Of a stretch of 64,000 nt of DNA, positions 5,181 to 46,439 are shown in pieces. The DNA is from Nakamurella sp. PAMC28650 (lineage in GTDB: Bacteria; Actinomycetota; Actinomycetes; Mycobacteriales; Nakamurellaceae): positions 744,001-808,000 of the forward strand of contig NZ_CP060298.1 of the NCBI RefSeq assembly GCF_014303395.1. The letters are read 5' to 3'. The number at the start of each line of letters is the position of its first letter. Position 1 is the stretch's first letter. The notes under the pieces are model-generated. The model saw only the letters and a list, made by a program, of their open reading frames with translations. It made no database searches and was not told where the DNA came from. Position numbers and translations under genes: made by a program.

Positions 5181-5221
5181 ACCATTGCTCGTCGCCGTCC
5201 ACGGATCATCGAGGAGAACCC

Positions 5222-27062: not shown

Positions 27063-27206
27063 CTCTCGATCATCGCCGACCCGCCGGCACGGCGCACGCG
27101 GGATCAAAACCTGCAGAGTCTGCTCGGCCGCGCGCGGGTTGAAGCGGCTCGGGTTTGGCGTCCCGCGCTGGACCGGGCCACGAGTACTTGCGTCGGCGGC
27201 CCTTAG

Positions 27207-27218
27207 GTAATATGTTAC
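27207..27218 (+). promoter_or_regulatory. GntR-type operator candidate at the hydroxyproline operon promoter
   Basis: GTAATATGTTAC is a 12-bp inverted repeat (GTAA/TTAC arms) 36 bp upstream of the first gene, with TAATAT inside it as a good -10 box. Short A/T-rich GTNNNNNNNNAC palindromes are typical of FadR/VanR-type GntR proteins, and such a regulator is the third gene of the operon. Confidence 0.5.
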
Positions 27219-27254
27219 GTGCCACCGACCGCCGATTCGAGGAGACCCACCCGG

Positions 27255-29677: not shown

Positions 29678-30342
29678 TGCAGACCCTGGGCGGCCGGATC
29701 CAGCAGTCGAGCCTCAAGGACAAGGTGCTGGCGATCCTGCGGAAGAACCTGATCACCGGCGACCTCGTCGAGGGTCAGCTCTACTCGGCCGCGGCCATCG
29801 CCGCCGAGCTGGGCGTCTCCACCAGCCCGGTCCGCGAGGCCCTGCTCTCGCTGGTGGACCAGGGCGTGATGGAGGCGGTCCGCAACCGTGGCTACCGGGT
29901 CCTGCCGCTGGGCGAGAGGGACCGGCAGGAGATCTACGAGATGCGCGCGCTGCTCGAGATCCCGTCGATGGTGAGGTTGGCCGGTCATGCCGAGGTGCGC
30001 GCCCGCGAGGACGAGTTCCGGCTGCTGGCCGACGATATCGTCCGCGCGGTGGCACGGGAGGACGTGGTGGCCTACCTGGCGGCCGACCTCGCCTTCCACC
30101 TCGGACTGCTGGGGGTACTCGGCAACGAGAGGCTGGTCGCCACCGTCAGGTCGCTGCGCGACCGGACCCGTCAGCTCAAGCTGGCCACCCAACTGGGTTC
30201 CGAAGAGCTGCAGCGCACCGCGGAGTCCCATGTCCTGCTGTTGGACGCGATGGTCGCCGACGAACCAGAACGCCTCCGGCAGCTGATGGTCGAGCATCTC
30301 GAACACATCCGGACCGACTGGGGCTCGGTCGGTCTCGGGTGA
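29677..30342 (+). CDS. GntR-family regulator (FCD domain) of the hydroxyproline operon
   Basis: 221 residues, ATG overlapping the dehydrogenase stop (TGATG). The winged helix (SAAAIAAELGVSTSPVREALLSL, about 38-60) is followed by an all-helical FCD ligand domain (EIYEMRALLE; FHLGLLGVLGNERL; ESHVLLLDAMV) whose His/Asp residues usually bind a metal and a carboxylate effector. Sitting inside the catabolic operon, it likely senses hydroxyproline or a pyrroline carboxylate and acts at the palindrome 27207-27218. Effector identity is inferred. Confidence 0.9.
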   Translation: MQTLGGRIQQSSLKDKVLAILRKNLITGDLVEGQLYSAAAIAAELGVSTSPVREALLSLVDQGVMEAVRNRGYRVLPLGERDRQEIYEMRALLEIPSMVRLAGHAEVRAREDEFRLLADDIVRAVAREDVVAYLAADLAFHLGLLGVLGNERLVATVRSLRDRTRQLKLATQLGSEELQRTAESHVLLLDAMVADEPERLRQLMVEHLEHIRTDWGSVGLG

Positions 30343-31271
30343 GCGGAATCCCGTACATCGACGCAGACACCCTGACCTCCCTGCTGTCCTGGCGGGCGGC
30401 CGGGGACGCGCTGGAGGCGGCGCTGCGTGCTGGTCTCGATCCGGCCGCCTCCCGGCCGCGCAGTTCCGTCGCCACCAGCGCCGGCGAGTTGTTGTTGATG
30501 CCGGCCGAATCCGCCGACGCCGTGGGGGTCAAGCTGCTCTCGCTGGCCCCGGCCAACCCGTTCGCCGGTCTGCCGCGGATCCAGGGTCTCTACGTCCTGT
30601 TCGACGCCGCGACGCTGACACCCCGGCTCCTGATCGAGGGATCCGCGCTGACTTCGCTGCGGACGCCGGCCGTCTCGGCACTGGCGGTGCGGTATCTGGC
30701 GGCACCGGACGCCCGGGTGGTGGCCGTCTTCGGTACCGGTCCGCAGGCGCTGGCGCACGTCCGGGCCGTCGCCGCGATCCGGCCGATCACCTCGGTGCGG
30801 GTCGTCTCGCGCCGGCCGAGCGGTGCGGACGGGTTGTGCGCTGCGCTCCAGGACCAGGGGCTCACCGCCCGACCAGGAGGCGTCGAAACGGTTCGCGACG
30901 CCGACATCGTTTTGTGCGCCACCACTTCCCCGGTACCGGTCTTCGACGGCGATCTGCTCGCCGATCACGCCTGCGTCGTGGCCATCGGATCGCACCGGCC
31001 CGGCGTCCGCGAGCTGGACGAGCGGGTGTTCGCCCGGGCGGCGCGCGTGGTGGCCGAGGACCGCGACACGGCGTTACGGGAGGCCGGAGACGTCGTCATG
31101 GCGGTCGCCGGCGGTGCGTTGGTGGCGTCGGATCTGATCGACCTGGCCGAGATGCTCTGTGCACCCGCCGTTCCCGGCATCTCGGTGTTCAAGAGTGTGG
31201 GCATGGGGTGGCAGGACCTCGTCGTGGCGGAGGCCGCGCGGGCGGCGTGGCTCACCGGGGTGCCCGCGTGA
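30339..31271 (+). CDS. Ornithine cyclodeaminase/mu-crystallin family, probable delta1-pyrroline-2-carboxylate reductase
   Basis: 310 residues, GTG start overlapping the regulator stop. The family's substrate Lys65 (GVKLLS) and the Rossmann motif VFGTGPQALAH (130-140) are clear, and SHRPGVRELD matches the conserved later loop. In hydroxyproline clusters this family member (LhpI-like) reduces delta1-pyrroline-2-carboxylate to proline with NAD(P)H. Ornithine cyclodeaminase activity is less likely given the neighbours. Confidence 0.82.
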   Translation: MSGIPYIDADTLTSLLSWRAAGDALEAALRAGLDPAASRPRSSVATSAGELLLMPAESADAVGVKLLSLAPANPFAGLPRIQGLYVLFDAATLTPRLLIEGSALTSLRTPAVSALAVRYLAAPDARVVAVFGTGPQALAHVRAVAAIRPITSVRVVSRRPSGADGLCAALQDQGLTARPGGVETVRDADIVLCATTSPVPVFDGDLLADHACVVAIGSHRPGVRELDERVFARAARVVAEDRDTALREAGDVVMAVAGGALVASDLIDLAEMLCAPAVPGISVFKSVGMGWQDLVVAEAARAAWLTGVPA

Positions 31272-32437
31272 CGCGGTCGCCGGAGGTGGTGATCATCGGC
31301 GCCGGCGTGGTCGGCGCCGCCGCCGCGTTCTACTGCTCCGCAGCCGGGCTCGACGTGACCGTCGTCGAGCGCGGACCGATCGGAGGCGGCACCACGGCAT
31401 CCTGCGAGGGCAACATCCTGTTGTCCGACAAAGAACCCGGTCCCGAGCTGGATCTCGCACTGCTGTCCTCCCGGCTGTGGTCGGAGCTGGCGCAGGAGAT
31501 CGGGGCCCATCGCCTGGAGTACGAACGCAAGGGTGGCGTGGTGGTGGCGGCCCACGAGTCGACCGCTGCGGCCCTGCGGGTTTTCGCCGCGCACCAGCGG
31601 GCGGCCGGCATCGAGTCGGTCGACCTCGACGCTTCCGATCTGCTGGAGCTCGAACCGCACCTGTCCCGCGCCTGTGCCGGTGGAGCCTTCTACCCCCAGG
31701 ACAGCCAGATCCAGCCGATGCTGGCCACTGCACAGCTGATGCGACACGTACGCAACCGGGGGGTACGGGTGGTCACTGACACGTCGGTCACCGGTTTCCT
31801 GCGTGGCCCGGGCGGCGCACTGGCCGGTGTCCTCACCGATTCCCCGACGGAGCCGAGGATCTCGGCCGCGTGGGTGATCAACGCGGCTGGCACCTGGGCC
31901 GGTCGGATCGCCGAACTGGCCGGCGCCCCCATTCCGGTCCTGCCACGCCGGGGATTCATCCTGGTGACGGAGCCGATGCCGAAGGTCGTCCACCACAAGG
32001 TCTACACCGCCGAGTACGTCGCGAACGTGGCCAGCAGTGACGCCGGGCTCGAGACGTCGGTGGTCGTCGAGGGGACGAAGGCCGGGTCGATCCTGATCGG
32101 CGCGAGCCGGGAGCGGGTCGGGTTCGATCGCACCATGTCGTTGCCCGTCATCCGGAAGCTCGCCGCCCAGGCGGTCGAGGTGTTCCCCTTCCTGGCCGAC
32201 GTCACCCTGCTGCGAACGTATCTCGGGTTCCGTCCGTACTGTCCCGATCACCTCCCGGTGATCGGGGCCGACCCCCGCGCGCCCGGGCTGATCCAGGCGA
32301 CCGGCCACGAGGGGGCCGGGATCGGGCTCTCGGCAGGAACCGGCAGACTGATCGCGCAGGTGATCACCGGCGCGCCGCCGGACCTCGACCTGACGCCGTT
32401 CCGTCCGCACCGATTCGAGGAGGTCACAGCAAGGTGA
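31268..32437 (+). CDS. D-hydroxyproline dehydrogenase, DAO-like FAD subunit
   Basis: 389 residues, GTG start coupled by GTGA. FAD-binding VVIIGAGVVGAAAAF (7-21) at the N-terminus and the DAO-fold C-terminus (GFRPYCPDHLPVIG, ATGHEGAGIGLS) match the LhpB/glycine-oxidase-like family. It is followed by a small [2Fe-2S] protein and an FAD/NAD oxidoreductase with a BFD-like end, the three-subunit arrangement of bacterial D-hydroxyproline dehydrogenase. It should oxidise cis-4-hydroxy-D-proline to the pyrroline. Confidence 0.88.
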   Translation: MTRSPEVVIIGAGVVGAAAAFYCSAAGLDVTVVERGPIGGGTTASCEGNILLSDKEPGPELDLALLSSRLWSELAQEIGAHRLEYERKGGVVVAAHESTAAALRVFAAHQRAAGIESVDLDASDLLELEPHLSRACAGGAFYPQDSQIQPMLATAQLMRHVRNRGVRVVTDTSVTGFLRGPGGALAGVLTDSPTEPRISAAWVINAAGTWAGRIAELAGAPIPVLPRRGFILVTEPMPKVVHHKVYTAEYVANVASSDAGLETSVVVEGTKAGSILIGASRERVGFDRTMSLPVIRKLAAQAVEVFPFLADVTLLRTYLGFRPYCPDHLPVIGADPRAPGLIQATGHEGAGIGLSAGTGRLIAQVITGAPPDLDLTPFRPHRFEEVTAR

Positions 32438-32724
32438 TCCCGATCAGCAGGGAACAGATCACGTTCTCCTTCGACGGCGAGGCGATTCCCGCCGTCAGCG
32501 GGCAGTCCATCGGAGCGGCCCTGATCGCGGCCGGACATCGCTCCTGGCGGCGCACCCGGTTCGACGACGCCCCTCGAGGAATCTTCTGCGGCATCGGTAT
32601 CTGCTTCGACTGCCTGGTGACGGTCAACGACCGGCCCAGCCGCCGGGCCTGCCTGGTCGAGGTCCGGCCCGGCGACGTCGTCAGCACCCAGCAGGGAGCC
32701 GGTCATGCCGATCTCCTCGCCTGA
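32434..32724 (+). CDS. (2Fe-2S)-binding small subunit of D-hydroxyproline dehydrogenase
   Basis: 96 residues, GTG start overlapping the DAO-like gene. The plant-type ferredoxin ligands are C52, C57, C60 (FCGIGICFDC) and C73 (RRACL). It has the usual size of LhpF-like and SoxA-hinge-like subunits and should pass electrons between the two flavoproteins encoded on each side. Its end overlaps the next gene by 20 bp. Confidence 0.9.
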   Translation: MIPISREQITFSFDGEAIPAVSGQSIGAALIAAGHRSWRRTRFDDAPRGIFCGIGICFDCLVTVNDRPSRRACLVEVRPGDVVSTQQGAGHADLLA

Positions 32725-34171
32725 ATTCTCCTCGGGCCCCCGGAAGTCCGGTCCGGAGGTCGTTTTCGACATCGCGGTGCTAGGTGCGGGCCCGGCCGGC
32801 CTGGCTGCCGCCGGGGCCGCGGCGGCCGCCGGCGCCCGGGTCGCGTTGATCGACGCCGGCCGGAGAATCGGCGGCCAGTACTGGCGTCATCTGGCCGAGG
32901 ACGACGGCCGTCACCACACCGGCTGGCCGATCTTCGCCGGGCTGAGGCGAAGGATCGACCAGCAGCCCGAGCGGATCGAAAATCTCGCCGGCCACTCCGT
33001 CTGGCAGGTGGAGACCCTGTTGGACAACGGTTTCCGCGTGAACACCACCACCGACGACGGGCAGCACTCGATCCTGGCCAGGACGGTGATTCTCGCTCCC
33101 GGTGCCTACGATCGGCAGCTGCCGTTCCCCGGCTGGACCCTGCCGGGAGTGTTCACCGCCGGGGGGACCCAGGCGTTGCTCAAGGGCCACGGCGTGGTCG
33201 CCGGCTCCCGGATCGCGGTCGCAGGTACCGGACCGTTCCTGCTCGCCGTGGCCGCCGGGCTGGCCGGCGCCGGAGCAGAGGTCGTCGGCGTCTTCGAGGC
33301 CGGCGGCGCCCCGACCGCCTTCGCCCGGCATCCGATCGCGGTGGCCCAGAATCTGGGCAAGCTCGGCGAGGGTGCTCACTACGCCCGGGTTCTCGCCCGT
33401 CACCACATCCCCTACCGCACCCGGACCGCCGTGATCGCAGCCCGAGGGGTCTCGTCCGTCTCCGGCGTCACCGTGGCGAAGCTGGATCGGGGCTGGAAGG
33501 TCGTCGAGGGTTCCCAGCGGGAGATCGACTGCGACACCCTGGCCGTCGGTTACGGTTTCACCCCCCAACTCGAGCTGGCCGTCCAACTCGGCTGCGCCAC
33601 CCGCCTGGACGTGGACGGAAGCCTGGTCGCAGTGGTGGACGGCGATCAGCGCAGCAGCGCTGAGGGCGTCTGGGTCGCGGGCGAGGCCACCGGCGTCGGT
33701 GGGGCGGCGCTGTCGGTCACCGAGGGCGAGATCGCCGGGCGGAACGCCGCGCACGCCGCCGTCGGGGTGCGTCCCGACCTGCCGGTCATGCGCCGCCTGG
33801 TCCGCCGCCGGGCCTCCCAGCAGCGGTTCGCAGCCGCTCTGCTGCAGGCCTACCCGATACGCCCGGGCTGGATGACCTGGTCGGCGCAGGACACCATCGT
33901 CTGCCGCTGCGAGGAGGTGACGCTGGGGACCATCGACGAGGCGGTCGTCGAGCTCGGCGCCGCCGACCCCCGAGCGGTGAAGCTCTACGCGCGACCGGGA
34001 ATGGGCCTGTGCCAGGGCCGCGTGTGCGGGTACGCCACCGGTTGCCTGGTGGCCGACCGGGCCGGGCGGACCCCCAACCTCGCCGACCTGCAGGGCGTGG
34101 CCGGCCGCCCCATCGCAGCGCCGATCACCCTCGGTCAACTGGCCGAGGCCCATCACCGCAACACCTTCTGA
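32705..34171 (+). CDS. D-hydroxyproline dehydrogenase, FAD/NAD(P)-type subunit with C-terminal [2Fe-2S] domain
   Basis: 488 residues; the ATG at 32705 lies within the previous gene and has GGAG just upstream. FAD motif VLGAGPAGLAAAG (25-37), a central NAD(P)-like motif VAGTGPFLL, and the C-terminal BFD-like cluster with cysteines in VCRCEEVT and LCQGRVCG. This matches the LhpE/SoxA-like alpha subunit. It accepts electrons from the DAO subunit and passes them onward, probably to the respiratory chain. Confidence 0.88.
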   Translation: MPISSPEFSSGPRKSGPEVVFDIAVLGAGPAGLAAAGAAAAAGARVALIDAGRRIGGQYWRHLAEDDGRHHTGWPIFAGLRRRIDQQPERIENLAGHSVWQVETLLDNGFRVNTTTDDGQHSILARTVILAPGAYDRQLPFPGWTLPGVFTAGGTQALLKGHGVVAGSRIAVAGTGPFLLAVAAGLAGAGAEVVGVFEAGGAPTAFARHPIAVAQNLGKLGEGAHYARVLARHHIPYRTRTAVIAARGVSSVSGVTVAKLDRGWKVVEGSQREIDCDTLAVGYGFTPQLELAVQLGCATRLDVDGSLVAVVDGDQRSSAEGVWVAGEATGVGGAALSVTEGEIAGRNAAHAAVGVRPDLPVMRRLVRRRASQQRFAAALLQAYPIRPGWMTWSAQDTIVCRCEEVTLGTIDEAVVELGAADPRAVKLYARPGMGLCQGRVCGYATGCLVADRAGRTPNLADLQGVAGRPIAAPITLGQLAEAHHRNTF

Positions 34172-34186
34172 AAGGCACTGCTCCCC

Positions 34187-35188
34187 ATGCGTACTGACCG
34201 CGTTCTCCATTCGGTGGACTCGCACACCGAGGGCATGCCGACGCGGGTGATCACCGGCGGCATGGGCGTGATTCCCGGTGCCACCATGTTCGAGCGGCGG
34301 GCGTACTTCCTCGAGCACCTGGACCACATCCGTGAGCTGCTGATGAACGAGCCCCGCGGGCACGCCGCGATGAGCGGCGCCATCCTGCAGCCGCCCACCC
34401 GGCCCGACGCCGACTACGGCGTGCTGTTCATCGAGGTGTCCGGGTGCCTGCCGATGTGCGGCCACGGCACCATCGGGGTGGCCACCGTCCTGGTGGAGAC
34501 CGGCATGGTCGAAGTCACCGAACCGGTGACGACCATCCGGCTCGACACGCCCGCCGGGCTGGTCGTCGCGGAGGTGCACGTGAAGGACAAGGTGGCGGAG
34601 TCGGTGACTCTGACGAACGTGCCGTCCTTCGCCCTGGGGCTCGACCGGAAGGTGGAAGTGGCACCCTGGGGCCAGGTTTCGTACGACATGGCGTTCGGCG
34701 GGAACTTCTACGCCATCGTCCGGCTCGAGGAACTGGGCATCGGGTTCGACCGCGCGAACAAGGACCAGATCCTGAACGCCGGTCTGGCCATCATGGCGGC
34801 CATCGACGAGCAGGACCTCCCGGTGCACCCCGGGAACCCGGCGATCACCGGTTGCCACCACGTCTACCTCGCCGCGCCGGGCTCTGATGCCGTGCATTCC
34901 CGGCATGCGATGGCGATCTACCCGGGATGGTTCGACCGATCCCCCTGCGGCACCGGGACCAGCGCCCGGATGGCTCAGCTGCACGCGCGCGGAGAGTTGG
35001 CGCTGGACACCGACTTCGACAACGAATCGTTCATCGGGACCCACTTCATCGGGCGCCTCGTCGGACAGGGCGAGCTGAACGGCATCACCACCGTCATCCC
35101 GACCATCACCGGTCGCGCCTGGGTCACCGGCACCGCGCAGTACATGCTGGACCCACGGGATCCGTTCCCCCGCGGCTTCGTGCTGTAG
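34187..35188 (+). CDS. 4-hydroxyproline 2-epimerase (proline racemase family)
   Basis: 333 residues, ATG at 34187 with AAAGG about 11 bases upstream. Both catalytic cysteines are present, Cys91 (PMCGHGTIG) and Cys254 (SPCGTGTSA), which separates the epimerases/racemases from the Thr-containing dehydratase branch. It converts trans-4-hydroxy-L-proline to cis-4-hydroxy-D-proline, the first step of the pathway, and is the last gene of the operon. Proline racemase activity is the alternative, but context favours hydroxyproline. Confidence 0.9.
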   Translation: MRTDRVLHSVDSHTEGMPTRVITGGMGVIPGATMFERRAYFLEHLDHIRELLMNEPRGHAAMSGAILQPPTRPDADYGVLFIEVSGCLPMCGHGTIGVATVLVETGMVEVTEPVTTIRLDTPAGLVVAEVHVKDKVAESVTLTNVPSFALGLDRKVEVAPWGQVSYDMAFGGNFYAIVRLEELGIGFDRANKDQILNAGLAIMAAIDEQDLPVHPGNPAITGCHHVYLAAPGSDAVHSRHAMAIYPGWFDRSPCGTGTSARMAQLHARGELALDTDFDNESFIGTHFIGRLVGQGELNGITTVIPTITGRAWVTGTAQYMLDPRDPFPRGFVL

Positions 35189-36619: not shown

Positions 36620-37813
36620 TCAGGTCAGGACCACACCGCCCTGGACGACTGTGCGGTGTTCGGGCCCGGCCCAGAGCACGGACGGCTTGTCCATGACGTT
36701 CGCGTCGACGATCAGCAGATCAGCGACGCAGCCCTCCTGGACACGCCCGAGGTGCCGCCGGCGGATCAGGTTCGCATTGACCGACGTGGCCGACTGCAGG
36801 GCCAGGAAGACGCCGTCCACCTCGACCTGCACCCGCAGGCCATTGAGCTGTTCGTCCTCCAGCGGACCCATCAGGTCGGTCCCGAAACCGACCTCGACGC
36901 CGGCGCCCCGGGCCAGTTCGACGGCCTTGCGACCCGCCTCGAGCACCTCGCTGTTCTTCTGACGGGACACGGCCGCCATGCCGAGATCGCCACCGCGGCG
37001 CTCCATCGCGTCGTAGGTGATCAGGGTCGGCACCAGGAACGCACCCGCCACCGCCATCGCGACGGCCGTCTCGGCGTCGAGCAGGTTGCCGTGTTCGATG
37101 GTCCGGACCCCGTTGTCGATCGAATGCAGGATCGCCTCCGGGGAGTAGGCATGCGCCGCAACGTAACTCCCCCGGCGCGATGCTTCGGCCGCCACCACCT
37201 GGATTTCCTCCGGGGAGTACTGCGGGACCCGGATCGGGTCGGTCAGCGAGACGACCCCACCGGAGGTCATGATCTTGATCGCGTGGGCGCCGCGGCGGAA
37301 CCGGTCACGGACCGCACGCCGCAGCGGGTCGACACCGTCGACCACCTCGCAGGTGTGCGCCGCACAGCCGCAGACCTCGCTGTCGGGACCACGGGGATCA
37401 CCATGACCGCCGGTCTGGCTCAGCGCAGCCCCCAGCCAGAGGTAGCGGGGCGAGGCGATCAGCCCTTCGCCGATGGCCCTGGCCAGGCCGGCGTCTCCGC
37501 CGGCCGGGTCACGAATGGTGGTGAATCCCCTGGCCAGCGAGTTGGCCAGCCGGCGCGCACCGGTCAGCGCCACGTAGCTCAGCGGCAGGGACTCGAGCGC
37601 CAGCATGTTCAGGTCGATGCCGTAGGCGTGGCAGTGCGCGTCGATCAGGCCGGGCAGTACCGTCCCGCCTCGGGCGTCGATCACCCGGTCGGCCGGCAGC
37701 GCCGGCCCGCCGACCGACGCGATCCGCCCGTCCACCACGTGCACCGTGCCCTCGGTCAAATCAGGCGAGACACCGTCGAAGACCAACCCGTTGACGACCG
37801 AAAGGCTGGTCAC
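36620..37813 (-). CDS. Zn-dependent amidohydrolase (imidazolonepropionase/Xaa-Pro dipeptidase-like)
   Basis: 397 residues, GTG at 37813 overlapping the stop of the upstream hydantoinase-B remnant (GTGA). Metal ligands are visible: H60-x-H62 (DAHCHAYG), the carbamylated-Lys strand IKIMTSGG, histidines in AAHAYS and TIEHGN, and the Asp of GFGTDLMG. It belongs to the amidohydrolase branch that includes enzymes splitting Xaa-Pro dipeptides and N-acyl-prolines. That would suit the nearby hydroxyproline operon, but a hydantoin-related substrate is suggested by the lost partner gene. No signal peptide. Confidence 0.87.
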   Translation of the reverse strand: MTSLSVVNGLVFDGVSPDLTEGTVHVVDGRIASVGGPALPADRVIDARGGTVLPGLIDAHCHAYGIDLNMLALESLPLSYVALTGARRLANSLARGFTTIRDPAGGDAGLARAIGEGLIASPRYLWLGAALSQTGGHGDPRGPDSEVCGCAAHTCEVVDGVDPLRRAVRDRFRRGAHAIKIMTSGGVVSLTDPIRVPQYSPEEIQVVAAEASRRGSYVAAHAYSPEAILHSIDNGVRTIEHGNLLDAETAVAMAVAGAFLVPTLITYDAMERRGGDLGMAAVSRQKNSEVLEAGRKAVELARGAGVEVGFGTDLMGPLEDEQLNGLRVQVEVDGVFLALQSATSVNANLIRRRHLGRVQEGCVADLLIVDANVMDKPSVLWAGPEHRTVVQGGVVLT

Positions 37814-38013
37814 CGCAATGCCTCCCGACGCCGCTCGGTGGCGGGCTCGTCGACCAGAGAACTCGAGGGATCCACCACCACACCGTAGTCCCGCTCGGCC
37901 GCCCGGACCGAGACGAACCCGTTGCGGACGTCGTGTGCGACCCGGGAGGGTTCGCGCAGCAGTGGACTACCGTATCCGCCGCCGCCGCTGCTCTGCCAGT
38001 CGAAACGTGCTCG
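37810..38013 (-). pseudogene. Hydantoinase B / N-methylhydantoinase (HyuB) C-terminal remnant
   Basis: A 67-residue frame with no start codon of its own runs from just after the TlpA-like stop to a TGA overlapping the amidohydrolase GTG. It reads WQSSGGGGYGSPLLREPSRV, then RVAHDVRNGFVSVRAAERDY and GVVVD, which is the conserved C-terminal end of HyuB/oxoprolinase beta subunits. The other roughly 450 residues are gone and the TlpA-like gene now abuts. The original operon probably was hyuA-hyuB-amidohydrolase. Confidence 0.85.
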
Positions 38014-38619
38014 TCAGCGCTCGGCGACAAGCTGTGTGACGACAGGGACGAGTTGGGTGTCGGTGACCGATCCCAACCAGATGTGGGCGACCCGGTGATC
38101 GTGGTCCAGGACGATCGTCGCGGGGATGGACGCGGTCGGAAAGCCCCGGATCGAGATGAGCGTCCTCATCGCGAAGTCCTCGATGGACGGGTAGGGGATG
38201 GATTTCTGGGTTTGGTAGTCCGCCCCGGCGCCCGGCTGGTCCTTGAGGTCGAGACCGAGGAACTGCGCGCCGCGCGGCTGCAGGAGATTCGCGGCGACGA
38301 CGAGGGAGTCGGTCTCGGCTCGGCAGCCCCCGCACCACGATCCCCAGGCATTGAGGACGACCACCTTGCCCGAATAGCCGGACAGTGCAACGGTTCCGCC
38401 GTTGCCGACCTCAGGTCCGGAGAGCTCACCGATCGTCCCGCGCCGGCCCGCCGGATAGGCGAATTCGGTCTTCCCGCCGGGCGAGGTGAACACGAAAATT
38501 CCACCTTGGACGTTTGCGTCGGTGCCGCTCGAGCAGCCGGCCAGCAGCAACGCGACCGTGGCCATCACGGCAGTGACCTTCCGGGGGACGGCCGTCCGGC
38601 GGATGCTCGAGGTGCCCAT
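38014..38619 (-). CDS. TlpA/ResA-like thioredoxin-fold lipoprotein
   Basis: 201 residues. A lipoprotein signal ends at LLLAGC (Cys29). The redoxin active site is WCGGC with Cys96 and Cys99, preceded by GKVVVLNAWGS, and the cis-Pro loop GFPTASIPATIVLD follows. Membrane-anchored TlpA-like proteins reduce extracytoplasmic disulfides, for example in cytochrome c maturation, but no ccd or res genes are nearby. It stands alone, with the HyuB remnant fused directly behind its stop, so its neighbourhood is secondary. Confidence 0.9.
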   Translation of the reverse strand: MGTSSIRRTAVPRKVTAVMATVALLLAGCSSGTDANVQGGIFVFTSPGGKTEFAYPAGRRGTIGELSGPEVGNGGTVALSGYSGKVVVLNAWGSWCGGCRAETDSLVVAANLLQPRGAQFLGLDLKDQPGAGADYQTQKSIPYPSIEDFAMRTLISIRGFPTASIPATIVLDHDHRVAHIWLGSVTDTQLVPVVTQLVAER

Positions 38620-38726
38620 CCGACAAATCTATCCGCTGGCCGGTGGTGCGCCCGTGGTGGCATCTTGACCAGACCGTCCAGTCATGCGGCGGTCGCACCG
38701 CAATCGGCAGGTCGGGGGGCAGACAA

Positions 38727-39557
38727 GTGCAGATCTCCGTGTTGGCGCTGTTCGCGCGCGACGACGACACACGCCAGGGGTTCCGTTGGGCTGCCACCCG
38801 CGCCGGCCTGACGGTGCTGGACCTGACGGCCGACCCATCGTCGGTGACGGCCGCCGCGGGTCCTGGAGTCGCAATCCGCGCCCCGGGCGGACTTGTCGCT
38901 TCGGCGATGGCGGCCGGGGCAACGGTCGTCCTGGCCGGGCCGACCCCGCAGTGGTTCGTCGGCCTGGATCCTGCGGTGACCGGACGGCAGTGGCAACTGT
39001 GCACACCCGCGCAGGCCAGGATCCTCCTGGCCGACGCGCCGACCTTCGTCAAATTGGCGGACAGCAAGCATGCAGCGTTTCCGGCGACCCGGTTCACCTC
39101 GGTGGGGGCTCTGGACAGAACGCTGGCCGCCGTCACCGATTCCGAGCACCTCGAATTGCTGGCCACCACCGGATGGCTCGCGATCGATTCGGAGTATCGG
39201 CTGTTCACGGTGACACGGGAGGTGGTGGCAGTCTCGCCCTACCGGGTGCAGGACGACCCCTGGAGTCCGTTGCTCCGCACCCATCGGGCGTCGTTCCACG
39301 ACGAGGCGGCGCAGTGGGCGGAGACGTTCCTGGCGAGCCTGCCCGAGGGTCGGGTCCCTCCTGCTGCCGTCCTGGACGTCGCCCGCCTGACGGACGGCCG
39401 ATTCGTCCTGCTGGAGGTCAACCAGTGTTGTGGCGCAGGGCTTTACGGATTCGATCCTGTCGGCGCACTCCGTGCGGTGCTGGCGGCGAACATCACCGGT
39501 GAGAGCGGTGGCGACGATCGGTCGCGCTGGCGACCGGACCCGGCCCTCCAGTACTGA
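38727..39557 (+). CDS. ATP-grasp-like domain protein
   Basis: 276 residues from GTG 38727; the frame extends 84 bases farther but without a ribosome site. The pre-ATP-grasp fold (LALFARDDDTRQGFRWAATRAGL) and the late segment LTDGRFVLLEVNQCCGAGLYG, with VKLADSKHAAFPA in between, resemble the ATP-grasp proteins annotated with DUF4343. Such enzymes ligate a carboxylate to an amine at ATP cost. No partner gene shows the substrate. The C-terminal Cys-Cys is unusual at this position. Confidence 0.65.
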   Translation: MQISVLALFARDDDTRQGFRWAATRAGLTVLDLTADPSSVTAAAGPGVAIRAPGGLVASAMAAGATVVLAGPTPQWFVGLDPAVTGRQWQLCTPAQARILLADAPTFVKLADSKHAAFPATRFTSVGALDRTLAAVTDSEHLELLATTGWLAIDSEYRLFTVTREVVAVSPYRVQDDPWSPLLRTHRASFHDEAAQWAETFLASLPEGRVPPAAVLDVARLTDGRFVLLEVNQCCGAGLYGFDPVGALRAVLAANITGESGGDDRSRWRPDPALQY

Positions 39558-39566
39558 GCCTGGTCC

Positions 39567-40019
39567 TCACCTCGGTGGCAGCCCCGGTGGTTCATGTCCA
39601 TCCGACAGCGCCTCGATGCACGACGTCAGGCTACCGAGTAGCTCGCCCTGTCGACGGGCCGAGAGCGGGGCGAGCATCCGCTGCTCGACCACGGCAACCC
39701 GGTGGGAGGCGTCAGCGAGACGGGCGGCGCCGATCTTCGTCACGACCACGCGTTGTCTGCGGCCCGCTCCCTCGATCTCGATCAGGCCGGCGTGGCGCAG
39801 GCCCGAGAGCAATTGGTGGGTGGCCTGCCGGGTCACGAACACCCCCCTGGCCAGTTCCGCGTTCGTCAGACCCGGGTGCAGGGCGAGGAGTTCCAACGAT
39901 GCGTATTGGGCAACGCTGAGTTCGCACTCGCGCAGCTCGGCATCCATCGTCGACCGCAACGCGACCGCGGCCCTCTTCAACGCGTAGCCGATTGATGTCG
40001 GGACATCGACTTGACTCAT
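39567..40019 (-). CDS. MarR-family transcriptional regulator
   Basis: 150 residues from ATG 40019; a longer frame exists but would cover its own operators. Winged helix visible as LTNAELARGVFVTRQATHQLLSGLR, wing GLIEIEGAGRRQRVVVTK. It diverges from a VOC-family gene and the 62-bp gap holds two matching palindromes, one touching its start codon. It most likely represses itself and the VOC gene until a small phenolic or electrophilic ligand binds. Confidence 0.9.
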   Translation of the reverse strand: MSQVDVPTSIGYALKRAAVALRSTMDAELRECELSVAQYASLELLALHPGLTNAELARGVFVTRQATHQLLSGLRHAGLIEIEGAGRRQRVVVTKIGAARLADASHRVAVVEQRMLAPLSARRQGELLGSLTSCIEALSDGHEPPGLPPR

Positions 40020-40061
40020 GTCAAGATCTTGACATAGATTCAATCTCGTCAAGTCCTTGAC
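40020..40061. promoter_or_regulatory. Two MarR operators between divergent marR and VOC genes
   Basis: GTCAAGATCTTGAC (40020-40033) is a perfect 14-bp palindrome, and GTCAAGTCCTTGAC (40048-40061) repeats its GTCAAG/CTTGAC arms. Centres are 28 bp apart, close to three helix turns, so two dimers would bind near the same face. The first site abuts the marR ATG. Confidence 0.75.
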
Positions 40062-40081
40062 GAATCTTTGAGGAGAACCCG

Positions 40082-40453
40082 ATGACCAGCACCGTGACAG
40101 GCCCCAGCTTTCTGGCTCTACAGGTCCGAGACGTGGAGGCCTCGGCAGCCTTCTACGAGTCCCAGCTGGGACTTGCCCGCGCACCCCAGTCGCCGCCCGG
40201 TGCAGTCGTCTTCACCACCTCGCCCATCGCCTTCGCCGTCCGGACACCCTCGCCCGGAACGGATCTGGAAAGTGGTCCGCTGGGACTCGGTATCGCCCTC
40301 TGGATGGCCACCGACAACGCCCAGGAGTTGCACGACCGGCTCGCGTCCGGCGGGGTGACGATCCTGGCGGCGCCGTTCCCTGGACCGTTCGGGCTCACCT
40401 TCGTGTTCCGCGATCCGGACGGCTACGCCATCACCATCCACAACGCCGGCTGA
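40082..40453 (+). CDS. VOC superfamily protein (glyoxalase/bleomycin-resistance fold)
   Basis: 123 residues, one VOC unit with ATG behind GAGGAG. The paired beta-alpha-beta modules start with FLALQVRDVEASAAFYESQLG and end with TFVFRDPDGYAITIHNAG. Members bind a divalent metal and act on or sequester electrophiles, phenols or antibiotics. The divergent MarR regulator with shared operators suggests induction by the compound that it handles. Metal ligands cannot be assigned with confidence. Confidence 0.88.
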   Translation: MTSTVTGPSFLALQVRDVEASAAFYESQLGLARAPQSPPGAVVFTTSPIAFAVRTPSPGTDLESGPLGLGIALWMATDNAQELHDRLASGGVTILAAPFPGPFGLTFVFRDPDGYAITIHNAG

Positions 40454-40575
40454 AACGGCGATCATCGCAATCAATATCCCCATTTGCCGAACCAGCCCGC
40501 CGCAAACTGGGCCATGCCGAGAACCGGAGAACGGGATGCCATGCCGGGCAGGCACGATGTGGGCAAGGATCGTCT

Positions 40576-41772
40576 TCAGCGCAATCTGAGCTCCTGACGG
40601 CGGTCGACGATCGCGCTGACGCGACGGGCGAGTCGATGAGCCGGCCGTTCGACCCCCCGGTGGAACAACTCGGCCGACATCAGCGCGGCGGCGGCGGCGG
40701 CAAGTACGGCGATGCCCAGCCAGGGCCAGGGCGTGGACGCCCTGACCAACAGGGCAGCAGCGACGATCACCGGCTCGTGCACCAGGTAGATGCTGAACGA
40801 TCGGGAACCGGCCCACCGCAACGCCGCAGAGTTCAAGAACGTGACGACCGGACGTGCGCAGAGGCTCAACACCACGACCAGCATCGCACCGACCAGGGAC
40901 AGGAACGTCGTCGTCGGCGCCCAGAATCCGGCGCCGACCGGCGACGGGAAACTGGGGCTGACCAACAGCACCACCCCGGCCACACCCGCGAGCGCGACCC
41001 GGCCCGGTTTTCTCAGACGCCCTGTTGCCAACGCTCGTACCCGAACCACGTTGAGCGCCAGCACCATCCCGATCCCGAACACCGGCAGATACTGCAGCAG
41101 ACCGGACGTCAGGTAGTTGACGGCCGAGATCGACCGCACGCGCGTATCCGTCGCCCCCCAGGCCGACACGGCCGCCAACGCGCCGATGGTCGGCAACCAC
41201 CATCTGCTGCGGGCGCACCGGCGCAGCGCGACGTAGCCGGCAGGCAGCATCAGCGAGAACCAGACTTCCCAGCGCAGCGACCACAGGGGTCCGTCGACCG
41301 TCGAGGTACCGAACAGGAGAACGGCGTCCTGGGCCTGGGACCTGGGCCCCGGGCCCTGATGGCCTCGCAGCCAGACGCTGCCGAAGGTATTGCTGCGCAC
41401 CACCGCGGAGGCCAGCAGGATCGACCCCACCACCGCGCCCCAGACCGGGAGGTAGAGCCGCACCACGCGACCCGCATAGTAGGCGGGCCAGCCAAACCGA
41501 CCGGTCGCGCCGAGTGGCAGGGTCAGCACGAACCCACTGAGCACGAAGAAGATCAGCACCGCCTCGGGACCCGCCCACAACGCCCGCAGCGGCGTCCGGT
41601 AGAGCCACCACACCACTGACCAGGTAGTGCTCGAGGCGGCCGTCTGCACCGCAGACCCGTCGGTCGGGATCGACATCGCCGGCAGGACCAGCAGAGCGTG
41701 ATAGGCAAGCACCACCAGGGCGCACAGCCCTCGAAGTCCGTCCAGCGAGGCGTACCGCTTGTGCTCGGCCAT
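40576..41772 (-). CDS. Acyltransferase 3 family membrane protein (OafA/YrhL-like)
   Basis: 398 residues from ATG 41772 (MAEHKRYASLDGLRGL); 23 further in-frame codons upstream are basic and unlike the family. The hallmark YASLDGLRGLCALVVLAYHA with its conserved His, the FFVLSGFVL helix, PLWSLRWEVWFSL and about ten membrane segments place it in Acyl_transf_3. These enzymes add acetyl or similar groups to sugars of surface glycans or to secreted metabolites. No glycan cluster is adjacent, so the acceptor is unknown. Confidence 0.9.
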   Translation of the reverse strand: MAEHKRYASLDGLRGLCALVVLAYHALLVLPAMSIPTDGSAVQTAASSTTWSVVWWLYRTPLRALWAGPEAVLIFFVLSGFVLTLPLGATGRFGWPAYYAGRVVRLYLPVWGAVVGSILLASAVVRSNTFGSVWLRGHQGPGPRSQAQDAVLLFGTSTVDGPLWSLRWEVWFSLMLPAGYVALRRCARSRWWLPTIGALAAVSAWGATDTRVRSISAVNYLTSGLLQYLPVFGIGMVLALNVVRVRALATGRLRKPGRVALAGVAGVVLLVSPSFPSPVGAGFWAPTTTFLSLVGAMLVVVLSLCARPVVTFLNSAALRWAGSRSFSIYLVHEPVIVAAALLVRASTPWPWLGIAVLAAAAAALMSAELFHRGVERPAHRLARRVSAIVDRRQELRLR

Positions 41773-41872
41773 CCCCCTGTGTCTACCGGCTCTGACTGTG
41801 CTACAACCATGTGTCCGCATGGCCGATCGCGCTCCCAGCATTAGACTTATGGCGTAAGCCGAATGTGTTCAC

Positions 41873-42064
41873 GTGCATGACGTACGTTCCGTACATGGAA
41901 GCCACCCAGCTTCGGAAACCTGCCCGCAATGCGGTGCCGCCGTCTTCGTGATCCAGGAGTCACAGCCTTCGATGCTGGTCACCGACGGGCAGGTGCTGGT
42001 GCCGGTCACCACGCCGGTGTGCGCGAACGGTCACGAGTGGCACTCGCCCCGTGAGACCGCCTGA
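41873..42064 (+). CDS. Small zinc-ribbon-like hypothetical protein
   Basis: 63 residues with a GTG start and no ribosome site, so the start is uncertain. Cysteine pairs ETCPQCGA and VCANGHEWHS could hold one zinc ion. The middle (MLVTDGQVLVPVTT) is beta-strand-like. It diverges from the acyltransferase and precedes the SNF2 remnant. No named family is recognised. Confidence 0.45.
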   Translation: MHDVRSVHGSHPASETCPQCGAAVFVIQESQPSMLVTDGQVLVPVTTPVCANGHEWHSPRETA

Positions 42065-42204
42065 GCATCGCGTCGGCCCGAATGACCGGTGCGGTCGAGA
42101 TCGTCCGACCGGCCGTGACCGGGCAGCTGGTGCTCGTTTCCGCTCCGATCCGCATCGCTGTCAGGGGCCGCTGCCAGCTTCCTGACCATTCCGATCTGAC
42201 TGGC

Positions 42205-42404
42205 GAGGAGCCTGCAAAATGCGTGCGGAACCGTCTGGATGCCGACGGCATCGAGTACGGCTACCTCGACGGAGCACCCGGAATCGGCCGCAGGTCCTGC
42301 AGGAGTTCAAGAACGGCACCGCCCCTGTCTTCCTGATCAGCCTGAAGGCCGGTGGGGTCGGGCTCAACCTGACCGAGGCCGACTACTGCATGCTGCTGGA
42401 TCCT
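42205..42404 (+). pseudogene. SNF2-family helicase C-terminal fragment, frameshifted
   Basis: One frame reads [20 protein letters not shown] then LDG; after a one-base shift near 42270 another frame continues with [31 protein letters not shown] and [12 protein letters not shown]. These are helicase motifs IV-V of SNF2/Swi2 ATPases. The expected WWNP and motif VI are replaced by unrelated sequence, and the rest of the gene is absent. This is a short, decayed remnant. The remaining bases from 42405 to 42564 hold no gene. Confidence 0.85.
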
Positions 42405-42516
42405 CCACCCGTGCATCAGGCCAGGTGGGGTGCGAACTCCCTCCCCGCAATCCACCGGCGGTGTCGATTCATCAGGCGACTGTCGGTGTCGTAGGTCACG
42501 ATGGCAGGGCGTCATC

Positions 42517-42540
42517 CGCCCCGGACCACTCACCGGGGCG
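42517..42540. promoter_or_regulatory. Inverted repeat upstream of the alpha-amylase
   Basis: CGCCCCGG (42517-42524) and CCGGGGCG (42533-42540) form an eight-bp stem with an eight-base loop, 24 bp before the amylase start. It could be an operator or an RNA hairpin near the ribosome site; the evidence is only structural. Confidence 0.35.
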
Positions 42541-42564
42541 ACCGAACAGGGGTAGGAGCAGAGC

Positions 42565-44286
42565 TTGTTGGACACCAGATCATCGGCCGGCGGACAGCGG
42601 CCGGGCAGGGCGAAGTGGGGCAGATCCGGCGGGGGCAGGGCCAGATGGGGCAGGGCCAGATGGGGCAGAGCAGCCCGGATCAACAGTGGCGTCGCCGCCA
42701 TTGCCGCGGCCGTCCTGGCCATCGCCCTGCTGCCGTCCCCGACCACCGGCGGCGCGTCGACCCGGACGGCGGTCGGCAACGCGTCTACCAGCACGGCCGT
42801 CGGTGGCGCGACGTCCGCCGGCACGGCGGCCCGGGCCACGCCCGCCCACCCCGGCCGCAGTCTGTCGAAGGACGTCATCGCGAACCTGTTCGAGTGGAAC
42901 TGGCGGTCGGTCACCACGGAGTGCACCCACGTCCTCGGGCCCAACGGCTACGGAGCCGTCCAGGTCGCGCCGCCGCAGGACTCCGTCAAGCGCACGGCTC
43001 TCGGCAACGGCAGCAACACCGTTCTGCACCCGTGGTGGGAGGTCTACCAGCCGGTCGACTACCAATTGAACAGCCGGATGGGCAACGAGGCCCAGTTCAA
43101 GTCGATGGTCGCGACCTGCCGGAAGGCGGGCGTGCAGGTGATCGTCGATGCCGTCATCAACCACATGACGGGCCAGGGCAACGTTTCCTACGGCGGCGTG
43201 AGCTACACGAAGTACAACTATGCCGGCCTGTACTCGCCGGCCGACTTCCACAGCAGCCCGGCCGACTGTCCGGTACCGCCCACCGCGGGCAACGGCGACC
43301 AGAACGGTTCCATCGCCGACTTCAACAGCTACACGCAGGTCTTCAACTGCGAGTTGGTCGGTCTCAGCGATCTGCGCACGTCGTCGAACAAGGTCCGCGA
43401 CACGCTGGCCGCCTACCTCAACAAGTTACTGGGCTATGGGGTCTCCGGCTTCCGGGTCGACGCCGCGAAGCACATCGGTCAGACAGACCTCGACGCCATC
43501 GAGTCGCGTCTGCACCGGACGGTCGACGGCACCCGTCCCTACCTCGCCCTCGAGGTGGGAACCGGGAGTCCAGGCCGTATCTCGCCCTTCGCGTTCCAGG
43601 CCCAGGGCAGCCTGCTGGGCTTCGACTTCGCTTCCCAGATCCAGTCCGCGTTCCGCAGCTACACCAGTGCCCCCGGCGGCAACATCGGTGATCTGAAGGT
43701 GTTCGGCGAGCAGTCCGGCCTCCTGCCGAGCAACCGGTCGCTGGCGTTCGTCGAGAACCACGACACCGAACGGAACAATTCGACGCTCAACTACAAGAGC
43801 GACGCCAACACCGTCGCCACCGAGTTCATGCTCGCCTACGGCTACGGAAGGCCCGCCGTCTACTCGAGCTTCGCCTGGACCACCACCGACGACGGGCCAC
43901 CCTCGGACGCCAACGGAATGGTGACCGACACCGACTGCACGAACGGCTGGGTCTGCGTCGACCGGTTCACCGGGGTCGCCGACCTGGTCGGCTGGCACAA
44001 CTACGCAGGGTCGGCCGAGGTGGCCAACTGGTGGGACGACGGCAACAACCTGGCCGCGTTCTCCAGAGGTGACCGGGCCTGGATCGCGATCAACAACGAG
44101 ACCGCGGCCAGGACGGTCACCGTCGAGACGGGACTGCCGGCCGGGCGGTACTGCGACGTCATCCACGGCGCTCGACAGGGTCACGCCTGCTCCGGTCCCG
44201 TCGTGACGGTCGGCTCGCACGGCCGCGCGACGGTCACGGTGCCGGCCAAGGACTCGGTGGCGATCTACGCCCTGTCCCGGATCTGA
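42565..44286 (+). CDS. Secreted alpha-amylase, GH13 family
   Basis: 573 residues if the TTG at 42565 behind AGGAG is used. The N-terminus has a WGR-rich repeat (GGGRARWGRARWGR, from two copies of a 15-bp DNA unit) ahead of a signal peptide (AAIAAAVLAIALLPSP). Catalytic GH13 regions are intact: DAVINH (195-200), nucleophile Asp299 (GFRVDAAKH), acid Glu330 (ALEVG) and Asp400 (FVENHD). A small C-terminal beta domain ends at 573. It hydrolyses starch outside the cell. A strong terminator follows. Confidence 0.93.
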   Translation: MLDTRSSAGGQRPGRAKWGRSGGGRARWGRARWGRAARINSGVAAIAAAVLAIALLPSPTTGGASTRTAVGNASTSTAVGGATSAGTAARATPAHPGRSLSKDVIANLFEWNWRSVTTECTHVLGPNGYGAVQVAPPQDSVKRTALGNGSNTVLHPWWEVYQPVDYQLNSRMGNEAQFKSMVATCRKAGVQVIVDAVINHMTGQGNVSYGGVSYTKYNYAGLYSPADFHSSPADCPVPPTAGNGDQNGSIADFNSYTQVFNCELVGLSDLRTSSNKVRDTLAAYLNKLLGYGVSGFRVDAAKHIGQTDLDAIESRLHRTVDGTRPYLALEVGTGSPGRISPFAFQAQGSLLGFDFASQIQSAFRSYTSAPGGNIGDLKVFGEQSGLLPSNRSLAFVENHDTERNNSTLNYKSDANTVATEFMLAYGYGRPAVYSSFAWTTTDDGPPSDANGMVTDTDCTNGWVCVDRFTGVADLVGWHNYAGSAEVANWWDDGNNLAAFSRGDRAWIAINNETAARTVTVETGLPAGRYCDVIHGARQGHACSGPVVTVGSHGRATVTVPAKDSVAIYALSRI

Positions 44287-44290
44287 CGGC

Positions 44291-44332
44291 GACCGCCGGG
44301 TACGGATGCCCAGGCGTCCGTACCCGGCGGTC
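44291..44332 (+). terminator. Strong stem-loop terminator after the amylase gene
   Basis: GACCGCCGGGTACGGA (44291-44306) pairs perfectly over 16 bp with TCCGTACCCGGCGGTC (44317-44332) around a ten-base loop, starting four bases after the amylase stop. T-rich tail is absent, as is common for actinobacterial hairpin terminators. Confidence 0.8.
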
Positions 44333-44414
44333 CTGGATGACGGCCTGAAGCCACCGAACGGAATGAGGTGCATCCCCGCTCGCGGTGGGCCCGGCCAGTC
44401 GGCAAACTGGTGGC

Positions 44415-44852
44415 ATGACGGACGACTTCCACCCCGACCTTGTCCACGCCCAGCCCAACCTGCGGCACATCCGGGCCGACGAGATCGACGGCGAAACGGC
44501 TCAGACGTCAGGCATGCAGCGATTTGCCGCGATCAGCCGGTCGAAGGTCGGTTCGGAACGGCTCTGGATGGGGCAGACCCACGTGCGGCCGCTCATGCAC
44601 TCGGACAACCATCATCACGGCGAGGCCGAAACGGCCATCTACGTCGTCAGCGGGTCGCCGGAATTCGTCTTCCTCGATGAGGAGACCGGCGAGGAGGTGA
44701 GGCTGCGGGCGGCGCCGGGGGACTATGTGTTCGTCCCGCCCTACACGCCTCACCGCGAGGAGAACAACCACCCTGACGTCGAGGCGGTCGTCGTCATCGC
44801 GCGGAGCACCCAGGAGGCCATCGTCGTCAACCTGCCGTCGCTCCGGGGCTGA
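44415..44852 (+). CDS. Cupin-domain protein
   Basis: 145 residues from ATG 44415. Cupin motif 1 HHHGEAETAIYVVSGSPEF supplies three His and one Glu for a metal, and motif 2 PGDYVFVPPYTPHRE supplies the last His. A small single-domain cupin; related proteins bind or oxidise small acids or sugars, or act as sensors. The gene is short of neighbours with a clear function; a squalene-cyclase-like gene follows 46 bp later and may be co-transcribed. Confidence 0.88.
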   Translation: MTDDFHPDLVHAQPNLRHIRADEIDGETAQTSGMQRFAAISRSKVGSERLWMGQTHVRPLMHSDNHHHGEAETAIYVVSGSPEFVFLDEETGEEVRLRAAPGDYVFVPPYTPHREENNHPDVEAVVVIARSTQEAIVVNLPSLRG

Positions 44853-44898
44853 GGGTGGACGCGCTGCGACTGTCGGTGACCGCGTCTATCTTGGGCCC

Positions 44899-45843
44899 AT
44901 GATCGCCGTGGACTGGCTGCTCGACTCCGATCCGTCGCTGCGCTGGCAGGTGCTGCGCGATCTGACCGACTCACCCCCAGAGGTGGTGGCCGCCGAGCGC
45001 GCCCGCGTCGCGACGCAGGGGTGGGGTGCTCAGCTGCTCGCTCTGCGCGGCGACGACGGTCTGTGGGCCGGCGGAGCCTGCTTTCCCGCGGACTTCCGCG
45101 GCGACTTCTCCGGCGGTCAGCCCTGGACCTCCACGCTGCCCACCCTGCAACTGCTGCGCGACACCGGTATCGACCCGGATGCACCGGCCGTCCGCACGAT
45201 GATCGCGGCGGTGCGGGAAGACTGCCGATGGGAGCACGCGGGGCAGCCGTTCTTCGCCGGCGAGGTCGAGCCGTGCATCAACGGGCGGACCGTCGCGATC
45301 GGAGCGTATTTCGGGGAGGAGGTGGACGGCATCGTCGCCCGGCTGCTCGGCGAGCAACTCGGAGACGGCGGCTGGAATTGCGAGGCGGAGAACGGATCCA
45401 CGCGCGGATCGTTCGCGACCACGATCTGCGTGCTCGAGGGTTTGCTCGCCTACGAGCAGGCGACCGGTGGCTCGACGCAGACCCTCGCCGCTCGACGACG
45501 TGGGCACGAGTATCTGCTCGACCGCCGGCTGTTCCGGCGGCTGAGCACGGGTGAGGTGGTCGACCCCGACTGGCTGCGCTTCTCCTTCCCCACCTGGTGG
45601 CACTACGACGTGCTCCGCGCGCTGGACTACTTGCATGCCACCGGTGATGCGCCGGATCCACGCCTGGCCGAGGCGATCGCGCTGCTTCGCTCGAAGCAGC
45701 AGCCCGACGGCACCTGGCTACTGGAGCACACCCATCCCGGCGCGCAGCATTTCCTGATGGAAGACGGCGACGGACGACCCAGCCGCTGGAACACTCTCCG
45801 CGCCCTTCGGGTGCTGGACTGGTACGGCTCCACGGTCGACTAG
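44899..45843 (+). CDS. Prenyltransferase/squalene-cyclase-like (alpha/alpha toroid) protein
   Basis: 314 residues. It contains repeated toroid elements with QW-like motifs (GDDGLWAGG, LGDGGWNCEAENG, QQPDGTWLLEH) found in squalene cyclase and prenyltransferase barrels. It is half the length of true hopene cyclases and lacks an obvious DxDD motif, so cyclase activity is doubtful. The WHYDVLRALDYL segment recurs in short actinobacterial relatives. No membrane segment or signal is seen. Function unknown; a sugar or lipid hydrolase-like role is conceivable. Confidence 0.75.
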   Translation: MIAVDWLLDSDPSLRWQVLRDLTDSPPEVVAAERARVATQGWGAQLLALRGDDGLWAGGACFPADFRGDFSGGQPWTSTLPTLQLLRDTGIDPDAPAVRTMIAAVREDCRWEHAGQPFFAGEVEPCINGRTVAIGAYFGEEVDGIVARLLGEQLGDGGWNCEAENGSTRGSFATTICVLEGLLAYEQATGGSTQTLAARRRGHEYLLDRRLFRRLSTGEVVDPDWLRFSFPTWWHYDVLRALDYLHATGDAPDPRLAEAIALLRSKQQPDGTWLLEHTHPGAQHFLMEDGDGRPSRWNTLRALRVLDWYGSTVD

Positions 45844-45890
45844 AGCGTCTGTCCATCAGATCGGTTCCTGCGGCAGCACTCTCGCCAGGG

Positions 45891-46100
45891 CTATCGGGCG
45901 CGCGACTGGTCCCGGTCGTCGCCGGTCACTTCGAGCGGCACGCTCGTCACGTCACCCTGCATCTCGGCCCTGGCCTGCTCGGCCTCTGACTTCAGCTCTT
46001 CGTAGCGCGCTGCGGACTTCGGATCGTCCCTGGCCGCGTTGCGCTCACCCACCACCCGCACAAACCAGTCCCTGGGTGCTTCACCCGGTAGTCGCGTCAT
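45891..46100 (-). CDS. Small charged hypothetical protein
   Basis: 69 residues with ATG at 46100 and a GAGAGG about 15 bases upstream. Composition is highly charged and helical (KSAARYEELKSEAEQARAEM), coiled-coil-like, without Cys or membrane segment. It diverges from the CsbD-like gene. I recognise no family. Confidence 0.5.
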   Translation of the reverse strand: MTRLPGEAPRDWFVRVVGERNAARDDPKSAARYEELKSEAEQARAEMQGDVTSVPLEVTGDDRDQSRAR

Positions 46101-46227
46101 AGCTTTCAGTTAACACCTCTCGATGGCGCTCACGACTTACACATGAACTGAGGAGTTTGTGTGGGCTGGTAGGGAGAAACCTGGAACGTACGAAGTTCTC
46201 TCTTCGCCACACCACCGGAGGTTTGCC

Positions 46228-46413
46228 ATGGCACTGGACGACAAGATCAGCAACAAGGCCGAGGAATTGGGCGGCAAGGCCAAGGAGGCGGCCGGCCACG
46301 CGACCGGCAACCAGGACCTCGAGGCCGAGGGCCAGGGCGACCAGGCCTCGTCGCACGTCAAGCAGGCGGGCGAGAAGATCAAGGACGCCGCGAAGGATCT
46401 CTTCGGCAAGTAG
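46228..46413 (+). CDS. CsbD-family stress protein
   Basis: 61 residues with GGAGG six bases before the ATG. The CsbD pattern is complete: a lysine/glutamate-rich helix with KAEELGGKAKEAAGHATG and VKQAGEKIKDAAKDLFGK. In Bacillus and actinobacteria such proteins accumulate under general stress control; their molecular role is unknown. The gene is monocistronic and convergent with a MarR gene. Confidence 0.92.
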   Translation: MALDDKISNKAEELGGKAKEAAGHATGNQDLEAEGQGDQASSHVKQAGEKIKDAAKDLFGK

Positions 46414-46439
46414 TCATCAGGACGGGTCGGCCCGCCGGA

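Follow-up and report, generated by a model that had tools for sequence, protein, structure and literature searches.

The 67 open codons at positions 37813-38013 (minus strand) of the window, the 64,000-nt stretch of Nakamurella sp. PAMC28650 DNA analysed here, are very probably a pseudogene remnant of hyuB, left by an operon that broke in a run of glycine codons, lost what lay upstream and now adjoins a piece of chromosome ending in a TlpA/ResA-like gene. The remnant itself, the lack of hyuAB in the genome, the gene order in relatives and a change of synteny are each observed directly. There is no fundamental difference from known bacterial pseudogene remnants at rearrangement or deletion endpoints, which have the same truncated frame with conserved sequence up to a sharp edge, the same disappearance of everything else in the gene and a parent that is intact in relatives; only the parent gene and the neighbour are particular to the window. 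The papers listed for gene remnants at breakpoints were general ones on pseudogenes. The loss of hyuB looks like ordinary gene decay, and we caution against annotating the 67-codon frame as a gene. The features discussed are as follows (window positions).

27188..35188, plus strand: catabolic block with DHDPS-like, aldehyde dehydrogenase, GntR regulator, FAD oxidoreductase and proline racemase/4-hydroxyproline epimerase-like genes
36620..37813, minus strand: amidohydrolase gene, intact, prolidase-like, former partner of hyuB (PF01979, E 1.7e-40)
37810..37992, minus strand: hyuB remnant, the final 58-60 codons of the gene, which begin at the glycine run (S)SGGGGYG and close with the original TGA (NF050157 and HyuB profile matches)
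37987..38013, minus strand: join, 21-27 nt from the TlpA stop to recognisable hyuB, in frame and not hyuB-like (aligned DNA and protein of G011, G005, G002 and G016)
38014..38619, minus strand: TlpA/ResA-like gene, TGA at 38014-38016 (PF00578, E 1.5e-13)
38014..46452, no strand assigned: 8.4-kb patch between synteny blocks, matched by relatives at scattered places

The hyuB remnant and its join to the TlpA/ResA-like gene

The frame lies between the TlpA-like gene and the amidohydrolase gene, and its TGA stop (37810-37812) overlaps the GTG start of the latter by 4 nt, as GTGA, which is the same overlap by which hyuB runs onto the amidohydrolase gene in a sister genome of the genus (G011). Against NF050157 (NCBIfam caprolactamase beta), a model of 577 positions, residues 8-64 of the frame align to 520-576 with E 1e-14; against a HyuB profile that we made from the sequences of 31 intact relatives, residues 8-65 align to 512-569, with 68.5 bits and E 5.8e-19. 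The likeness is therefore not a chance one. From its sequence, the frame closes with the end of a HyuB-type (caprolactamase-beta-like) gene, and the initial annotation was right to recognise a HyuB tail here, still in frame and overlapping the next start. Amino-acid identity to residues 520-571 of G011 HyuB is 75%. The tail gives no Pfam match at E 0.01 because PF02538 stops about where it starts, spanning residues 3-521 of the intact, 571-residue G011 HyuB; the remnant is almost exactly the portion C-terminal to the Hydantoinase_B domain. Set against the HyuA/HyuB family (N-methylhydantoinase, 5-oxoprolinase, caprolactamase CapAB), whose C-terminal end the tail matches, about a tenth of HyuB is left, with almost nothing of the Hydantoinase_B domain; the remnant begins at profile position 512, and most of the protein, including the catalytic domain, is gone. 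Neither mark of a functional HyuB is present, the tail having no PF02538 domain and the genome no HyuA partner (no PF01968 match).

The remnant had been described as abutting the TlpA-like gene exactly, with the endpoint of the event at 38013/38014. The coordinates are right and the meaning is not: any open frame extends back to the previous in-frame stop, so that the edge at 38013/38014 is the stop codon of the TlpA-like gene only, and recognisable hyuB starts 21-27 nt further in. The window's sequence across the edge is RARFDWQSSGGGGYG. Where four relatives (G011, G005, G002 and G016) share the motif ...VLVNNTGGGGG(Y/F)G..., the join reads RARFDWQS in place of ...VLVNNT. Nucleotide similarity to G011 ends at 37986, or at 37992 when one takes the pair of serine codons for altered TG codons, and either position falls within the run of glycine codons. 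The G+C content around the join is 0.68-0.71 in 1-kb windows. The join may still be an assembly error.

The TlpA side of the join is itself out of its usual context. The genome carries two TlpA/ResA copies, the other at C1:2010994 with a ccdA-like neighbour, and a ccdA-like gene follows 19 of the 21 other TlpA genes examined (one having supplied the query), which were taken from the 24 found in addition to the window's own; the label ccdA-like is a loose one, resting on PF02683 at E 0.0042, below its cut-off, with no NCBIfam match and no Pfam match at E 1e-5. The window holds no such neighbour for its TlpA-like gene, and the join therefore brings together a resA-type gene without ccdA and the end of a hyuB gene without its front. 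With the window's TlpA as query and a strict cut (E 1e-62), matches occur in 5 of 397 genomes of the order, one of them its own; since all five belong to the same genus, an origin within the genus is the likelier one. This confinement also speaks against a gene brought in from outside the genus, a source that we considered and rejected. By eye, relatives share no sequence after the TlpA stop, and no donor sequence for the TlpA side was found.

The operon in relatives and the probably rearranged flank

Six other genomes of the genus carry an amidohydrolase 58-91% identical to that of the window. A full hyuA-hyuB pair precedes it in four of these (G011, G005, G002 and G016), as had been expected of relatives, and the amidohydrolase stands without adjacent hyuAB in the stretches examined of the other two (G012 and G001), so the pair is not a fixed partner. 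In G011, the genes are laid out in one direction:

4324448-4326547: hyuA
4322726-4324441: hyuB
4321536-4322729: amidohydrolase, 91% identical to that of the window

The initial annotation also held that the rest of hyuB had vanished, and the genome agrees: its single 5.63-Mb contig has no match to PF02538 or PF01968, each of which found matches in 6 of 14 control genomes. At the DNA level, a 9-kb G011 query running from hyuB through hyuA and beyond (L062:900-9900) gave no match within hyuAB and 27 short matches (68-93%) to the genome, all past query position 5190 and outside hyuAB. A hyuAB relocated within the genome was thus looked for and not found. At a distance of about 10 kb, G011 has another, different hyuA-hyuB pair (L062:13050-15281; G011:C1:4336723-4338768), so that it holds two pairs where the genome of the window matches neither family.

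In the model that best accounts for these data, an ancestral hyuA-hyuB-amidohydrolase operon, its order deduced from relatives, would have lain beside a catabolic cluster of the proline/hydroxyproline type. A break inside hyuB, placed at the glycine-codon run where the conserved Hydantoinase_B domain ends, would have removed hyuA entirely and about 510 codons from hyuB, presumably through illegitimate recombination, and another piece of chromosome, ending in a stray TlpA/ResA-like gene, would have come to lie there. Because the start region of the amidohydrolase gene lies in the part of hyuB that was spared, that gene would have remained intact, and either the TlpA side or its own start probably drives its expression.

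The synteny bears on what kind of event this was. Two stretches of the window are collinear with G011 in one place, 27188-35188 with 4312563-4320572 (blastn, 74% over 8.1 kb) and 36620-37986 with 4321536-4322902. The remainder of the window from 46452 onwards corresponds, in pieces and in order, to G011 1704383-1723999. The two G011 blocks lie about 2.6 Mb apart, or 2.4 Mb the other way round if the 5.01-Mb contig is circular, and G011 4340547-4346025 is found at 201542-207012 in the genome of the window. The alpha-amylase of the intervening patch matches G011 at 3.62 Mb. The break in hyuB, reported earlier as a deletion or insertion endpoint, is real, and a plain deletion or insertion is doubtful because the window joins blocks that are distant in G011; judged from these alignments, a rearrangement of the chromosome in which sequence was lost at the join probably fits better than a clean deletion. 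A mobile element as the cause was considered and rejected, a Pfam scan of nine ORFs in the 38-46.4 kb stretch showing no transposase or integrase. Between 37700 and 46700 there is no long repeat, only pairs of 20-31 nt.

A simpler, local event, either the insertion of a TlpA-bearing piece into hyuB or a TlpA-hyuB deletion in a collinear region, is unlikely. The tail does sit in the right place and orientation beside the amidohydrolase gene, as a single cut would leave it, and the flank of G011 may be the derived, rearranged state, in which case a local event here would be possible. Against this, collinearity is not resumed beyond the patch, where window positions 46.45-64 kb correspond to 1.70 Mb of G011 and not to 4.33 Mb, and no part of hyuAB is found elsewhere in the genome.

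The same region shows two other differences. Between 35188 and 36620, the window has a methyltransferase gene; the corresponding place in G011 is taken by a luciferase-like monooxygenase gene, which is convergent with the amidohydrolase gene and of which tblastn (E 1) found no trace in the window. The patch contains a second broken gene, a fragment of an SNF2-type helicase at 42219-42494 (plus strand), in which 43-44 residues are 73-89% identical to the loci of five relatives, where the frames exceed 620 amino acids.

The substitution pattern gives an approximate age. Over the 46 codons after the glycine run, the tail and G011 are separated by 16 synonymous changes and 10 nonsynonymous ones (pS 0.42, pN 0.10, pN/pS 0.24), compared with pS 0.42, pN 0.05 and a ratio of 0.12 for the amidohydrolase and pS 0.47, pN 0.07 and a ratio of 0.16 for the racemase-like gene. 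Intact tails have pN/pS of 0.42-1.05 among themselves, at larger distances and probably with partial saturation; the remnant has no nonsynonymous excess over them, and its pN/pS is twice that of the amidohydrolase. As it has no sign of a long neutral phase, the truncation looks young relative to the split from G011. The dating is weak, both because of this doubled ratio and because the ratios of intact tails are probably saturated, and uncorrected proportions over 46 codons make a weak clock. What had been called a recent event keeps that description in a relative sense: the loss of hyuB seems, from these differences, recent relative to the split from G011, and the locus offers a clean, apparently recent and well-bracketed case of operon break-up.

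Turnover of hyuAB and the standing of the short tail

Across Actinomycetota, the hyuAB state beside this amidohydrolase has, on the sequence tree, changed repeatedly. Among the 80 loci of named genomes that are the best of 133 relatives, a full hyuB lies upstream in 31 (including L160, which is probably G005), hyuB is cut by a contig end in one (L117), and it is truncated in two, those of Kribbella catacumbae (L150) and Microbacterium sp. ASV49 (L193). A further 44 have no adjacent hyuB match and were scored as amidohydrolase alone, among them L183, L184 and L187 with a distant hyuB (34-35%) some kb off, and two (L176 and L180) begin too close to a contig edge to score. The hyuAB label requires 17 changes when mapped onto an 86-sequence amidohydrolase tree, against about 28 for shuffled labels, and at least 11-12 of the 17 are forced by well-supported branches; the tree has a midpoint root only and some long branches, and gains are not distinguished from losses. 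The amidohydrolases of the window and G011 are sisters (100/99) with opposite hyuAB states. HyuAB and the amidohydrolase are thus no fixed pair in Actinomycetota, and the frequency of the changes suggests that the amidohydrolase is of value without HyuAB, a point that is useful in assigning substrates to either.

The two other tails recall that of the window to different degrees. Kribbella catacumbae, beside four Kribbella without hyuAB (100/99), retains about 420 bp of frameshifted hyuB (L150:9576-9983) before the amidohydrolase gene, which may represent a halfway step in the same loss. The Microbacterium locus groups with an intact one (L190; 100/99), and its alignment to that locus begins only at the same glycine-codon run, as does that of the window to G011; it is the weaker case because a run of N (9875-9884) lies between tail and amidohydrolase gene. 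Two of the three remnants, those of the window and of Microbacterium sp. ASV49 with its nearby assembly gap, hence start in the glycine run, which, with n = 2, is suggestive of recombination at GGC repeats. The broader proposal, that the GGC-type glycine run is a preferred break point at which hyuAB would be lost independently by illegitimate recombination while the downstream gene, with its start in the spared tail, survives, is at present quite improbable.

Two further explanations give the tail a present role. In the first, it would be read as an extension of TlpA through the in-frame TGA, or kept as a leader for translational coupling to the amidohydrolase, which we consider very improbable. 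The tail does follow in the TlpA frame, with a C after the TGA, a GGGAGG lies 7 nt before the GTG start of the amidohydrolase gene, and a simple pattern scan of 37600-38900 found no terminator-like site and no promoter. A shared frame, however, has a one-in-three chance, a coupling leader would need only the last few tens of bases and not 58 codons, and, with the window's TlpA as query, such a gene lies near the amidohydrolase gene in none of five regions of the genus and none of the best 80 loci.

In the second, the tail would be maintained for its own sake as a working small protein or subunit, an explanation with next to no chance of being correct: the frame is open, its pN/pS is low, two CTG codons (rare starts) lie 49-50 codons before the stop and a short tail also precedes the amidohydrolase gene in Microbacterium sp. 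ASV49, but no ATG, GTG or TTG occurs before the last 23 codons, and of the 86 amidohydrolase rows 3 carry a tail, each in a clade of its own. Searches with the tail profile in two overlapping sets of 397 and 394 genomes looked for the same short frame as an independent protein, the case named at the outset as the one that would overturn a remnant. They turned up 2 and 6 frames under 300 amino acids, respectively, among the 150 matches listed for each; one in each list is the window itself, and the other six all lie at a contig end. Among the matches listed, the frame is thus not conserved as a small protein, and the pseudogene remnant stays the preferred reading.

Predicted functions of the retained and lost genes

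The amidohydrolase of the window is 91% identical over residues 2-397 to the G011 protein encoded after the intact hyuB. The closest solved sequences are 3mkv (E 2e-85) and 3feq/3n2c (E 3e-81), a group that we take to be COG1228-type; the near relative 3feq/3n2c has been named both putative amidohydrolase and prolidase. Residues H60, H62, K180, H221, H241 and D313, presumably the metal ligands, are invariant in six amidohydrolase sequences including that of the window. The model NF051886 (Xaa-Pro dipeptidase) scores 200.5 bits, below its cut-off of 500, and we assume Xaa-Pro activity for the solved relatives 3mkv and 3feq/3n2c. By homology, then, the protein is a probable peptide-cleaving enzyme, and it presumably still works without HyuAB. 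The adjoining cluster, with its proline racemase/4-hydroxyproline epimerase-like gene, FAD oxidoreductases, aldehyde dehydrogenase and DHDPS-like gene, suggests the use of proline or hydroxyproline peptides. Because the copies of the window and G011 stand apart on the tree from those of G002, G005 (L160), G016, G012 and G001, the amidohydrolase gene may have been acquired by transfer.

For the lost partner, the intact G011 genes serve as a guide. Their matches to the caprolactamase models score 477 bits (alpha) and 204 bits (beta), both below the curated cut-offs of 1000 bits. Intact HyuAB resembles caprolactamase and N-methylhydantoinase (PMC8453981), and its predicted function would be an ATP-dependent ring opening of the lactam/hydantoin type. 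Of the papers listed for the two families, those on HyuAB deal with caprolactamase and those on prolidase mostly with the human or PepQ-type enzymes. Among solved structures, G011 HyuB matches N-methylhydantoinase (7hk5) and caprolactamase (6yra).
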